Source: a virus
DNA length: 42,380 nt
Direction: 5' to 3' (one strand)
Virus record (IMG/VR): IMGVR_UViG_3300027902_000015
Span: 1 to 42,380 of that record
Every line of letters begins with the position of its first letter. Position 1 is the first letter of the stretch. Of this stretch, positions 21,523 to 41,891 are shown piece by piece. The notes under the pieces were generated by a model. It did not search any database and had not been told where the DNA came from. It saw only the letters and a list, made by a program, of their open reading frames with translations. The translations under genes were made by a program, and so were the position numbers.

Positions 21523-21720
21523 CGCTCCCGCTCCGGCTCCCGCTCCAGCTCCCGCTCCAGCCCCCGCTCCAGCTCCCGCTCCAGCTCTGGCTCCAGCTCC
21601 GGCTCCGGCTCCCGCTCCGGCTCCGGCTCCGGCTCCAGCTCCCGCTCCGGCTCCCGCTCCGGCTCCAGCTCCAGCTCCCGCTCCAGCTCCAGCTCCCGCT
21701 CTGGCTCTGGCTCCAGCTCC
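21523..21720 (-). repeat. 33 tandem copies of the hexamer GGAGCN
   Basis: 198 bases made of 33 consecutive 6-mers. On the minus strand the unit is GGAGCN, with N = T, C or G but never A; only four units depart at another base. One frame gives (Gly-Ala)n in frame with the clamp loader; a second gives Ser-Trp/Gly/Arg repeats, in an 80-aa frame from a GTG at 21760 that overlaps the upstream stop and ends at 21518; the third gives Glu-Leu/Pro/Arg. All three are open here. Almost all unit-to-unit variation is synonymous in the Gly-Ala frame. The array also gives a GGAG every six bases. Confidence 0.9.
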
Positions 21721-21756
21721 AGCTATTTTCAAAGCCTGTCCGTAAAATAGCGGCGT

Positions 21757-22089: not shown

Positions 22090-22114
22090 AATTTTTTCTC
22101 CTTACTTTATTATA
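22090..22114 (-). promoter_or_regulatory. TATAAT-plus-SD cassette before the 110-aa gene
   Basis: TATAAT (22109-22114) starts exactly 25 bases upstream of the ATG and is followed by AAAGTAAGGAG. The TATAAT includes the stop codon of the polymerase gene. No -35 hexamer is seen. The 25-base spacing is identical at 36525 and 39662. Confidence 0.5.
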
Positions 22115-25100
22115 GTGCTGATAGTCCCATCCAATCGGATTTCGCTTTGGCTCTGGCACACTGTTGCCAAATCTGACATTCTTGGCATTCTGCATACATA
22201 TTGTTATTGGAGGCGAACTGTCCACCATAAGGACAAGTTTCATTAGGATCTGGTTGCCATTCATCTCTGGCCCAAATATCACCGCCTATCATGGCTAACT
22301 TCCTGGCAAAGTTCTCAATACCGCTGGCAAAGGTTTGCTTGTTACTGGCTTGATAAAGAACCGAGGCGGGATGAATACACCAACAGATCCAGCACTGGTA
22401 CTGATCGGACCATTCAGTTGTGCCGCAGAGCTCAGTTATCCCACCTGTTTCCCCACGGAACATCTTAACGCCTGTATTTCCGAACGCCAGGATGATGATT
22501 GGCTGAAGATTTTCAATCTCCATTTCGATATGCTTGGAACAAATTTGGATATGCTTCTTAGACGGCGTCTTGGTTCTGGACGGATAGCATTTCACACAAT
22601 TTGAAACATGAAACATAAATGGAGAGAATCCATACTTCTTTAGTTCGGGCCAGAGCACATCATTCCCCGCACTGCCTATGAAACCAATTCCTTCCTGGTC
22701 CTCGTTCTTTCCTGGTGCCTCCCCCGCGAGCATTATATTGTAACGACCAAAGGAGGGCTGAACAGGTCTACTACACTCGTTAATCAACTCACAGCTCTGG
22801 CATTCGATCTTAGGCAAGATGTATCTGTTGATCTCTATCAGATCGCCTTGGTAATTATCAAGACGGCAGGCAAGGATATCTCTGTCTGAATACCCCGTTA
22901 AATTCAGTCGAGAGAATCGTTCCTGGCCAGTCAGGACATTAAAATCATAGTAAGGAGTGGCCTGTTTCAGCTCTTCATAGGTCAGATCCTGTTCCCGATA
23001 GTACCCCGCCTTTGTAAGGAGAGCGGTGATGGCTGACTTCTGCGACTTCTGAACAGTTACCTGCGGAGGTTCAGGAGTCGGATTGATAATCTTCTTGTCA
23101 AAGAAGCCTCTGGGAATCGCTTTCTGTTTCTGTTCTTTTACTCTCTGACGACTCGTGCTTGGCTTAGCTTGTCCAACTTTGTTACTGATCCTGCCAGATA
23201 GTATTCTCTCCGCCTGCGAATCTCCTATCCCCTTAATAGCCATCAAAGGAGCATAGATAACATTCTTACCAGGTGGTGCATACCATTCTCTGGCTTTTGA
23301 CAATCCTTGCTTGGGTAGTTCTATTTGAAGACCAAGTCGTCTGGCTTCATCTACATAGTTTTTAGTCTCATCTTTTCCACCGTAGGTGAGGCAGGCACAT
23401 AGAAATTCTTTTGGGTAGTAACACTTGAGGTACATCATCCAATATGTGATCAAGGAGTATTCGGTGGCATGTGCCTTATTGAACGAGTAGGAGGCATGAG
23501 ATGATAACATATCCCATACATGAGAGGCTTCATCCTTTGATATAGTTTTTTGATTTACACAACCATTTACAAACTGATCTTTGAATTCTTGAAACGCCGC
23601 CTCCCCTTTGGACTTTCCCATTACCTTTCGGACCTTCTCGCACACTCCCCAAGGCAGTCCTGCCAGTTCATACATAACCCACATCACCTGCTCTTGGTAA
23701 ATAACTATGCCTAGGCTCTCTTTGGTATAGGGTGCCAGCTTTGGATGAAGATGAGAGACCTTTACCTCTTTTCTTCTCCTTTTCAGGAATTCATCCACCA
23801 TACCAGATCCTAAAGGGCCAGGTCTGAATAGAGAAGTTGCCAAAACTATATCATTGAACTCTTTGACTTTCATGTCTTTGCAGAGACCTGTTAATCCATG
23901 ACTATTGATCTGGAAGGCGCCTGCGGTGTTACCTAGGCTAATCTCTCTGAACACTTTCTGGTCATTCAATGGTATCTGGTCGAATTGGATATCGAACTCA
24001 GAGCCTAGATTATCAAGAATCATCTTTCTGGCACCATTTAGAATAGATAAGGCGGCCAGTCCAAGTATATCTAACTTCATTAATCCCATATACTCGGCGT
24101 CGCTCTTTTCCCAGTTGGCAACCAGAACTCCACTTCTCTGAACTAAGTTACATCTCAGACCGTCTCGTAAATCATCTCTGGAAAGGCACGAGGCCGCTGC
24201 GTGCTGCCCGCTACCAGAGACCTGCCCTTCTAGTTCCATACCATATCTGACAACATCTGGGTACTTATTTTGAAACTGTTTTAGTTCTTCTGTTTTAAGG
24301 CTGTCTTCAATGCTATGATTGGCTCTGGGGTCTCCATCTGAAATAGTCACTATGGCCTTGGCTGCCAGATCAACTTCCTTTAAGGGAACTTCAAAGACCC
24401 TGGCTACGTTTCTTAGAGCACCTCGCCCTTTCATACTGGTGAAGGTAGAGAGACCCGTTACGTTATGTTCTCCATAACAATCGCGTAGATGTTGCTTTAC
24501 TTCTTCCCGACGATGGTCCTCAAAATCCATATCGATATCTGGGAGGTCCTTACGCTCTGGGCTAATGAACCTGGCGAAGATCAGACTATACTTAATGGGG
24601 TCTACGTCAGTAATCCCTAAGAGATAACAGACCAGACTACCTCCGGAACTACCCCGGCCAGGCCCTGTCATGATGCCTTGCTTCTTGCACCAGGATATGA
24701 GTTCCCAGACGATAAGGAAGTATCGTTGGAAATTCATCTCTACGATCAGATTAAATTCTTCGTTAACTCTGGACTCGTAGGTAGAGTAATCTCCTACTGG
24801 TCGTCTTGACCAACCATCTGCGATGATTGCCCATAGGAGTTCTGTTTCGTCTTGGTCCTCGTAACCATATACTTTGGGTAGGTCGACAGGAAGTTTTTCA
24901 ATAGTGTAGCCATTACAGAGGTCAACCACTTCCATAGTTCTGGCCATGGCATCGAGATAAGTTTTCTTGTCAAACTGACCTTGTCTCTCGAAAGCCATTT
25001 CCATCTCAGCGGCAGAGCGAAGATGAAGACCTGTGAAATCAAACTTCCACCGATTAGGATCATTCCATTTGGCTTTACGCTGAATAGCCAGTAATACTTC

Positions 25101-39661: not shown

Positions 39662-39686
39662 AAGATTTCTCCTACTCCTTATTATA
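39662..39686 (-). promoter_or_regulatory. TATAAT-plus-SD cassette after the initiator gene
   Basis: TATAAT (39681-39686) is 25 bases upstream of the 49-aa gene's ATG, followed by AAGGAGTAGGAGAAA. It includes the stop codon of the initiator gene. It probably starts the unit that runs through the HD protein to the helicase. Confidence 0.5.
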
Positions 39687-41361
39687 GTGTCGGCTGGAAG
39701 AACTGTCTGGGTTCCGGATTGGTGGTCGGTTTGTAAACTCCGATGTTGTATAAGAATTTCTTAACGGGTTTGTTGTCGGGATTAAACCACCCAGGATTGA
39801 TAATCTCTGCTGCGCTCTCGATGGAATCCAGGAACTCTTCGAAGAACGATGGCCAGGAATTACAACCATTACCATTCATCTTCAACCTGTACTCCTGAAT
39901 ATATCTTTTCTTAAGGTTGATGATGTTACTGGCCAGCTTTGACTTCTCCTCTGGCATTATTTTCTCAGGAATGATATCCATCGCCTGTTCGAGCTGCCGT
40001 TCCACCGACTTGAAGTCGACGGGCATTTGTTTAATGACTTTGACTGGATTTGCCATCCATACCCTCGCAAGGAAGGAATGTCCTTTATGCGATCTCATTG
40101 CTCCTGATAAATATATCTTTTCACCCTTGCCACCATAATCTACTCCCAACATATTATTGAGTAGGAGATATAGTTCACGGCGCTCGGCTTGACTAAATTT
40201 TTTGTCAAGGAAACGCTCTCTCAGAGTCTTTTCTGTCAGTGGATAATTACCGCCTGGCATGGTAGTCCCCTTCATGTTGTTGATAATGGCTTGTATTTCA
40301 TCTGGCCGGAGATAATTGCTTGGGCCGTATATGAGGGCTTTGATTACTCTGGTGTCTTCATGATATATATCAGTACCCGTTCTGGGTGACCGGACAAGAT
40401 TAAGATTATCCCTTATCCAGTTCATATCGAGGGTGACTTCCATGGGATAGTGTTTTGTAGAGACTTCTTTCTTTTTGTTAAAATCATTTTTTGGTTTTAC
40501 TGACTCGAGTTTCAGGTGGCGGATAATTTTATTGACGAGGCCTGCTGGGGCAGGGGTATCAAAGGGAATTCTTATAGGCATATTATATTCCTTTTTGATA
40601 GGGGAGTTTATTTGCTGGGAAGGGGGCTCTTCTTTTAAAGGAACTTCCTTAACAAACAGAACCGAAGGTTCTTTAGAATTATCTTTAGATAATTCATCTT
40701 TACTTATTATCTTTACTTTATCTTTACTTATACCATATGGTTTTCTTGGGTTGGGGTATATGGTTTTCTTGGGTTGGGGTATATGGTTTTCTTGGGTTAC
40801 AGACATTTGAAAAGCATAGATCGGAATAATATTTGAGACTCTGGCTTTGGCCTGTAAATACGTAGATAGCGGTATTCCAACCTTCCACGCCTTCCACCCA
40901 TTGTTGTGATTTGCGAAGGCGATTTCAACAGCAGCGACAGTTCTATCGGAAAACTCTTTTAACTGAAATAAGCGAGAATTTATAGTCAGGCCATCCGGGT
41001 GGGTTCCCAATGGGGGTTCTGGTAGGACGACTTTGGCTCTATTTTTAGAGAATTCTAATACCCCTAAACTTTGTAATTTTTTTCTGGTTTGACGGGCAGA
41101 CTCCTCTGTTTCTCCTCCTCCAAGCATTCGTGAGAGAACCAAGTCTGTAGGAGGTGTAGGGAGTTGATCATAAATTGCTAAAGCGTATTTATCTTTACTA
41201 CTTATTCCTGATGCTTTTTTTGTGTTTTGGAGGATGTGTCCGGGGATTTGTCGGGAGGTAATCTCAATTTTTTCTTCTGGTTTTGTTTCCGTTTTTGATA
41301 CCAATCCCAGATTGAGACGAACTGGAGCTTCTGACTCTTCTTGTTTTGCTTCTTTAGCCAT
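39682..41361 (-). CDS. Probable replication initiator/organizer protein
   Basis: 559 aa with CGGGAGTGGAAAA before the ATG. The N-terminal region (~55-110) is a winged-helix-like segment (KYALAIYDQLPTPPTDLVLS, RQTRKKLQSLGVLEF), followed by FSDRTVAAVEIAFANHNNGW. Residues ~185-290 are a Pro/Lys-rich linker; the C-terminal 260 residues are helical with no known motif. As in lambda O, the linker DNA contains direct repeats next to an AT-rich stretch. It precedes the helicase unit. The initiator call is inferred from this layout, not from a strong sequence match. Confidence 0.55.
   Translation of the reverse strand: MAKEAKQEESEAPVRLNLGLVSKTETKPEEKIEITSRQIPGHILQNTKKASGISSKDKYALAIYDQLPTPPTDLVLSRMLGGGETEESARQTRKKLQSLGVLEFSKNRAKVVLPEPPLGTHPDGLTINSRLFQLKEFSDRTVAAVEIAFANHNNGWKAWKVGIPLSTYLQAKARVSNIIPIYAFQMSVTQENHIPQPKKTIYPNPRKPYGISKDKVKIISKDELSKDNSKEPSVLFVKEVPLKEEPPSQQINSPIKKEYNMPIRIPFDTPAPAGLVNKIIRHLKLESVKPKNDFNKKKEVSTKHYPMEVTLDMNWIRDNLNLVRSPRTGTDIYHEDTRVIKALIYGPSNYLRPDEIQAIINNMKGTTMPGGNYPLTEKTLRERFLDKKFSQAERRELYLLLNNMLGVDYGGKGEKIYLSGAMRSHKGHSFLARVWMANPVKVIKQMPVDFKSVERQLEQAMDIIPEKIMPEEKSKLASNIINLKKRYIQEYRLKMNGNGCNSWPSFFEEFLDSIESAAEIINPGWFNPDNKPVKKFLYNIGVYKPTTNPEPRQFFQPTL
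40658..40734. other. AT-rich, palindrome-rich candidate unwinding element
   Basis: Inside the initiator gene. It holds AGAACC/GGTTCT (40658-40672, loop GAA), GAATTATC/GATAATTC (40676-40695, loop TTTA), and three copies of ATCTTTACTT[AT] (40696, 40709, 40720). It borders the 23-bp repeats directly, an arrangement like the lambda origin (iterons beside AT-rich DNA). Confidence 0.55.
40735..40798. repeat. Three tandem 23-bp direct repeats (iteron-like)
   Basis: Copies start at 40735, 40758 and 40781. The first two are identical over 23 bases (ATATGGTTTTCTTGGG then TTGGGGT), and the third matches over its first 18. The period of 23 is not a multiple of three, so each copy is read in a different frame of the initiator gene. 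Confidence 0.9.
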
Positions 41362-41765
41362 TTTTCCACTCCCGTTAATTTTCCATTAGGGAAGTCATAA
41401 TCTTGTTCGAACTGATGTAGATAGTAAATGTTTAATTCTAGAGACAAGATAACAAAATCTATGGTTGGATTGGCTTGTTGAAAAAATTTGGTAAAATCAC
41501 TCATATTATCTATGAGGTCTTGTTGAAGAAACTCTTCTTCCATGTAGCTCGTAATAAGAGGTTCTTTCAGTTCTGGATAAACTCGGAGGATGTGTTCAAG
41601 AGCGAATTCAATAGGCCATTCGAAGGGATAACATAGTAAAAAAGAAAAGACAGTTTGTATAAAAATTTTCGAACAACAACTACTACCTTCTTCCTTGAAT
41701 ACGCTTCCTATCTCTGTTTCATAAATGGGAAACCATTTAATAGGAAAAATTTTTAAGTTTTTCAT
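41202..41765 (-). CDS. Hypothetical 187-aa protein overlapping the initiator gene
   Basis: 187 aa from MKNLKIFPIK, chosen for AAGGAAG five bases upstream; a further ATG at 41786 has poorer spacing. The N-terminal 140 residues look like a real folded protein (PFEWPIEFALEHILRVYPEL, FVILSLELNIYYLHQFEQDY). The C-terminal ~50 residues are Lys/Gln-rich and overlap the initiator gene by 160 bases in another frame. The latter overlap is unusually long, so the true stop may be read, or the C-terminus may be a by-product. Function unknown. Confidence 0.5.
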   Translation of the reverse strand: MKNLKIFPIKWFPIYETEIGSVFKEEGSSCCSKIFIQTVFSFLLCYPFEWPIEFALEHILRVYPELKEPLITSYMEEEFLQQDLIDNMSDFTKFFQQANPTIDFVILSLELNIYYLHQFEQDYDFPNGKLTGVEKWLKKQNKKSQKLQFVSIWDWYQKRKQNQKKKLRLPPDKSPDTSSKTQKKHQE

Positions 41766-41803
41766 TAAACTTCCTTGCAAATCCATGCCTTTAGAGAGGA
41801 GCG

Positions 41804-41840
41804 CTGGGGCAACCCTTCGTCAAGGTTGGTGTTGCCCCAG
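41804..41840 (-). other. Strong hairpin in the leader of the 187-aa gene
   Basis: CTGGGGCAAC and GTTGCCCCAG form a perfect 10-bp stem; the 17-base loop contains a CCTT/AAGG inner stem. No U-run follows on either strand, so a structured leader or operator is more likely than a terminator. It lies between a TATAAT at 41864 and the gene start. Confidence 0.6.
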
Positions 41841-41863
41841 GCTGGTAAGGCAGGATAATTTTT

Positions 41864-41891
41864 ATTATAAAGGGTCCTCAAAGAAAAACAA
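41864..41891 (-). promoter_or_regulatory. Possible sigma70-like promoter upstream of the 187-aa/initiator genes
   Basis: Minus strand TTGTTT (41886-41891), 16-base spacer, TATAAT (41864-41869). It would transcribe through the hairpin at 41804-41840 into the 187-aa and initiator genes. The -35 match is modest. Confidence 0.35.

Follow-up and report, generated by a model that had tools for sequence, protein, structure and literature searches.

A candidate replication origin within the linker of the initiator gene of an uncultured phage

A 42,380-base virus record from an uncultured phage (the whole stretch of DNA analysed, referred to here as the window; positions are those of the window unless stated otherwise) very probably carries a phage replication origin inside the gene for its putative initiator, in the linker region. 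This reading is based on strong comparative evidence, namely on a layout conserved in two relatives, on the joint change of the iterons and the N-terminal domain of the initiator, and on synonymous-site constraint beside the iterons, all of which support the proposal of the first-pass annotation that an origin lies inside this gene. The elements listed there, i.e. three 23-bp iterons, an AT-rich tract, three copies of ATCTTTACTT and a pair of perfect inverted repeats, are all present at 40658–40798, in the linker of a 559-aa putative initiator gene (39682–41361) that shares an operon with a DnaB-like helicase. An origin inside an initiator gene is already a known kind of feature (lambda, SPP1). 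The present candidate belongs to an uncultured lineage of phages, the initiator of which is not recognized by any family library.

The putative initiator gene, its parts and the helicase gene of its operon were assigned as follows:

39682–41361, minus strand: putative replication initiator gene, 559 aa (ORF; homologues at L003:4238-5866, identical to L007, and at L006:718-2769, matched by L010)
40804–41361, minus strand: predicted N-terminal DNA-binding region (low-confidence models, PHROG 345 match of L003, hhalign to O N-domains)
41032–41199, minus strand: predicted winged helix, approximately residues 55–110 (low-confidence models)
Residues 129–178 of the initiator, minus strand: possible second helical domain (low-confidence models)
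39682–40581, minus strand: conserved C-terminal domain without known family (profile and structure comparisons)
40579–40593, minus strand: internal Shine-Dalgarno sequence (AAGGA) and ATG at codon 261 (aligned place kept at codon 241 in L003 and codon 364 in L006)
36558–38087, minus strand: DnaB-like replicative helicase (PHROG 19, E=5.7e-19)

Pol III alpha and a clamp are also encoded in the window. The initiator proteins (542–683 aa) are encoded between primase and DnaB helicase and away from structural genes; the primase gene of the relatives is just upstream of the initiator, and the equivalent position in the window would fall past the end of the contig. The DnaB-like helicase has a cysteine-containing insert (C266, C274, C305, C308), invariant in five relatives, that is perhaps a metal site. 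Pol III alpha (22110–25712, minus strand) carries a uracil-DNA glycosylase domain (PF03167, residues 992–1126) as a C-terminal fusion, and the two parts are also neighbours in the relatives G003 and G002. A 7-deazaguanine gene cluster at 26628–36096, comprised of TGT-like, two QueC-like, QueD, QueE and GTP cyclohydrolase genes, suggests a modified guanine in the phage DNA. About 33 GCTCCN hexamers are arrayed in a coding region at 21524–21724.

The iterons are direct repeats at 40735–40798, in the linker, consisting of 2.8 copies of a 23-bp unit with 100% matching. The repeat search gave:

40781–40798, minus strand: iteron 1, AACCCAAGAAAACCATAT
40758–40775, minus strand: iteron 2, AACCCAAGAAAACCATAT
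40735–40752, minus strand: iteron 3, nearest the AT tract, AACCCAAGAAAACCATAT

On the gene strand, the 17-bp core, AACCCAAGAAAACCATA, is present in exactly three copies, and no further copy was found in the 42-kb window, even with three mismatches allowed. Because 23 is not divisible by 3, each of the copies falls in a different reading frame (giving TQENHIPQ, PKKTIYPN and PRKPYGI); among the high-scoring arrays of the window, this is the only one with such a period. The array has a tandem score of 41, and 300 synonymous-codon shuffles of the initiator gene yielded at most 18. Thus, with a non-triplet period and a score that synonymous shuffles do not reach, the iterons are constrained as DNA. 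Their dyad symmetry extends to 4–5 of 11 positions in three phages, compared to 9 of 11 in lambda, as measured by a centred test that replaced an earlier one that was blind to lambda's own dyad.

The iterons adjoin an AT-rich tract, which is followed by two inverted repeats:

40689–40738, minus strand: AT-rich tract that is free of C on the gene strand and contains three AAGTAAAGAT repeats, a candidate DNA unwinding element
40676–40695, minus strand: perfect inverted repeat 1, GAATTATC-TAAA-GATAATTC (gene strand)
40658–40672, minus strand: perfect inverted repeat 2, AGAACC-TTC-GGTTCT (gene strand)

The copies of ATCTTTACTT are found at 40696–40705, 40709–40718 and 40720–40729. In AT content, the tract ranks among the top two places of the window, its best 60-bp AT window being equalled by just 6 of 42,321 windows, and it includes the longest G-free run of the window (50 nt, plus strand). 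The hairpins of the window are weak when taken alone, as a stem of 8 or more appeared in 48 of 500 shuffles. Both hairpins recur at the equivalent place in both relatives.

These relatives were found by a scan with the helicase, which yielded five loci, including two distinct full-length initiator homologues, L003 and L006; there are only three distinct homologues in the collections searched. No relatives of the initiator were found in annotated phages or GTDB genomes. There are three iterons in L003 (AACCCTATAAGAAAACT, spacing 23 and 22 bp) and two in L006 (AACCCTTAATAAAACTA, spacing 22 bp), likewise unreached by synonymous shuffles. In the window, L003 and L006, iterons, AT tract and two hairpins follow each other in the same order and at the same place, while the letters of the iterons differ. 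The pattern AACCC...AAAAC is common to the three iteron units, beyond what is seen in shuffled units (p = 0.006, 0.001 and <0.001). Outside this locus, the window, the 53-kb G001 and the ≈97-kb G002 contain no iterons, and in G001 and G002 this locus is the sole site with exact tandem copies of at least 14 bases at 18–26 bp spacing. Absence of the repeats from close relatives had been named as a finding that would speak against an origin; the layout is instead present in two distinct relatives. We considered the possibility that the array arose by chance slippage in a drifting linker and has no function. Linkers do tolerate repeats, and the copies number only two or three, but the place, the nearly identical period and the order of parts are common to three homologues with different letters. 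With the synonymous constraint, and with the relatives already contradicting it, such an accident is extremely improbable. The two ends of G002, the contig of L006, share 126 identical bases, though the record is classed as linear; this suggests that the genome, of ≈97 kb, is complete and either circularly permuted or terminally repeated.

Comparison with the closest relative, L003, indicated that the iterons do not vary independently of the protein. The C-terminal part of the initiator is 77% identical to that of L003, and the N-terminal part 24%. At the DNA level, the two are similar across the C-terminal part up to 40730, five bases from the iterons, and again from 41889, upstream of the gene, leaving a single block:

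40731–41888, no strand assigned: block without DNA similarity to the closest relative, containing the N-terminal domain and the iterons; flanks 77–79% identical

Because the similarity breaks right beside the iterons, the predicted DNA-binding domain and the iterons change together, as one block that was either exchanged or diverged rapidly. This is a case, outside the lambdoid phages, of an initiator DNA-binding domain and its iterons changing as a unit, and a related pair of phages with different domain and iteron sets offers a ready domain-swap test of how the initiator reads the origin. In L003, a homing endonuclease gene (652–1545 of that locus) is located beside the primase gene, at a distance of ≈2.5 kb from the initiator block described above.

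Directly past this block is a stretch without synonymous change, counted over codons for residues that are identical between the window and L003:

40603–40692, minus strand: codons without synonymous change relative to L003 (24 of 24, versus 131 of 210 elsewhere; Fisher p=2.6e-5)

This suggests that the hairpin region is constrained as DNA or as RNA. The counterparts of inverted repeat 1 are AGTATTATC-TAAA-GATAATACT in L003, where one pair is changed on both sides relative to the window, as read from the sequence, and an 11-bp stem in L006. Hairpin 2 is the same in the window and L003 and becomes CGAACA-TTC-TGTTCG in L006, with two compensated pairs. In all three homologues, an internal Shine-Dalgarno sequence and ATG are found ≈65–110 nt downstream of the hairpins, and the other internal ATGs of the gene have no Shine-Dalgarno sequence conserved among the three. 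This conserved, in-frame start sits directly after the candidate origin, and codon 261 may be the start of a separate 299-aa C-terminal product. The compensated pairs and the retained internal start would fit an mRNA element, formed by the hairpins and tract, that controls translation of the C-terminal part, with iterons that are incidental or autoregulatory. Such an element, however, would explain neither the AT tract nor the presence of the iterons and their change in step with the N-terminal domain, and there was no credible match in Rfam. As a replacement for the origin we consider it very unlikely; it may rather be an additional layer on top of it.

The initiator of the window has no match in PHROG or Pfam, O included, in agreement with the statement of the first-pass annotation that the protein shows no evident match to O. 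That statement does not extend to L003, however, the N-domain of which has a weak match to PHROG 345, "replication initiation O-like" (E=0.0012), in the winged-helix region. The same region was aligned when hhalign was run against seven O N-domains (P=0.0005, probability 32%). The C-terminal domain has no family match in Pfam, PHROG or the PDB, and there are no PDB relatives for either half of the protein. The structure models were of low confidence (mean pLDDT 34 and 53), and the AlphaFold model of the whole protein was dropped due to its poor quality. For the N-domain model, structure comparison retrieved generic winged helices only, among them Rep and lambda GpO entries, and no hit reached E ≤ 0.001. 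There was no Pfam match to Rep_3, and a second DNA-binding helical domain is suggested only by low-confidence models.

The repeats could also be a site that the protein binds for another purpose, DNA packaging (pac) or partition. Small terminases can recognize a pac site located within the gene that encodes them, and a DNA-binding protein with a site in its own gene is also the layout of some terminase/pac pairs; a PHROG 2 search of the contigs found no terminase. Packaging, however, is at odds with the position of the initiator homologues between primase and helicase, away from structural genes, and with the match of one relative's N-domain to O-like initiators, and it gives no reason for the AT-rich tract beside the iterons. 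We therefore regard a packaging or partition site as very unlikely.

GC skew at first appeared to support the origin, since the cumulative minimum of the window, at 40,150, is near the site that the first-pass annotation had proposed to check in this way. However, the minima of the relatives (23 kb in G001, 34.6 kb in G002) fall away from their candidate origin sites (7.3 and 20.0 kb, respectively), and the third-codon skew in gene sense is approximately zero. Skew thus tracks gene direction, and it was dropped as evidence for the origin.

For the origin reading, a mechanism can be outlined in which the initiator would work like lambda O and SPP1 gp38, with membership established in neither family. 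The predicted N-terminal winged-helix region would bind the 23-bp iterons, all three from the same face of the helix, and would bend the DNA, whereupon the adjoining AT-rich, C-free tract would melt. The C-terminal domain, either directly or via a small protein of the operon, would then bring the phage DnaB-like helicase to the opened strand, on which the phage primase and Pol III would subsequently act. The two hairpins past the tract probably aid stabilization of the single strand, loading or priming.

The annotated lambda iterons occupy a central position within gene O, and an AT-rich tract comes after them. In lambda and in lambdoid O/P modules (P22, HK225), the N-domain, iterons and AT tract are arranged mid-gene (PMC7466680, PMC4488673); the lambda tract is described as highly strand asymmetric, and O binds via its N-terminal half (PMC4488673). 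The lambda-like layout initially proposed for our phage stands with respect to the order of parts, from a predicted N-terminal DNA-binding domain to iterons and a directly adjoining, strand-asymmetric AT-rich tract. The likeness of an origin in mid-gene, between DNA-binding and C-terminal parts, is one of anatomy only, and O/ori recognition is likewise phage-specific. The likeness does not hold for the iterons, which in lambda are (imperfect) inverted repeats bound by O dimers and here lack the dyad, or for the helicase, since lambda P captures host DnaB while this phage has its own. No P-like loader was matched among the genes downstream of the initiator, and the sequence link to O consists of one weak family match in one relative.

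The iteron plasmids (F RepE, R6K pi, P1 RepA, RK2 TrfA; Pfam Rep_3) have non-palindromic direct repeats alongside an AT-rich tract (PMC5043065). The present iterons resemble theirs in this respect and in a length of about two helical turns, but the protein does not match Rep_3 and the origin is inside the gene. One might speculate, with considerable reservation, that the initiators form a separate family, in which the N-domain binds non-palindromic iterons as a monomer in plasmid style and is exchanged between phages as a cassette with its own sites. The C-terminal domain, conserved and not described before, would in this case load the DnaB encoded by the phage and would also be produced on its own from the internal start that the homologues share.

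The SPP1 system is comprised of the gp38 initiator, the gp39 loader and the gp40 DnaB helicase. The initiators described here are about twice as long as gp38 (542–683 versus 256 aa). PHROG and Pfam gave no match to a gp38-type initiator or a gp39-like loader among the initiator and intervening genes, and no second repeat cluster (oriR) was found in the contigs. Nevertheless, SPP1 oriL/gp38 likewise has direct repeats and an AT-rich element within the initiator gene, as well as a phage-encoded DnaB-family helicase in the module (here matched by PHROG 19, E=5.7e-19). Because the iterons lack a dyad and the phage has its own DnaB, SPP1 oriL/gp38 has the closest layout and is a closer analogue than lambda.
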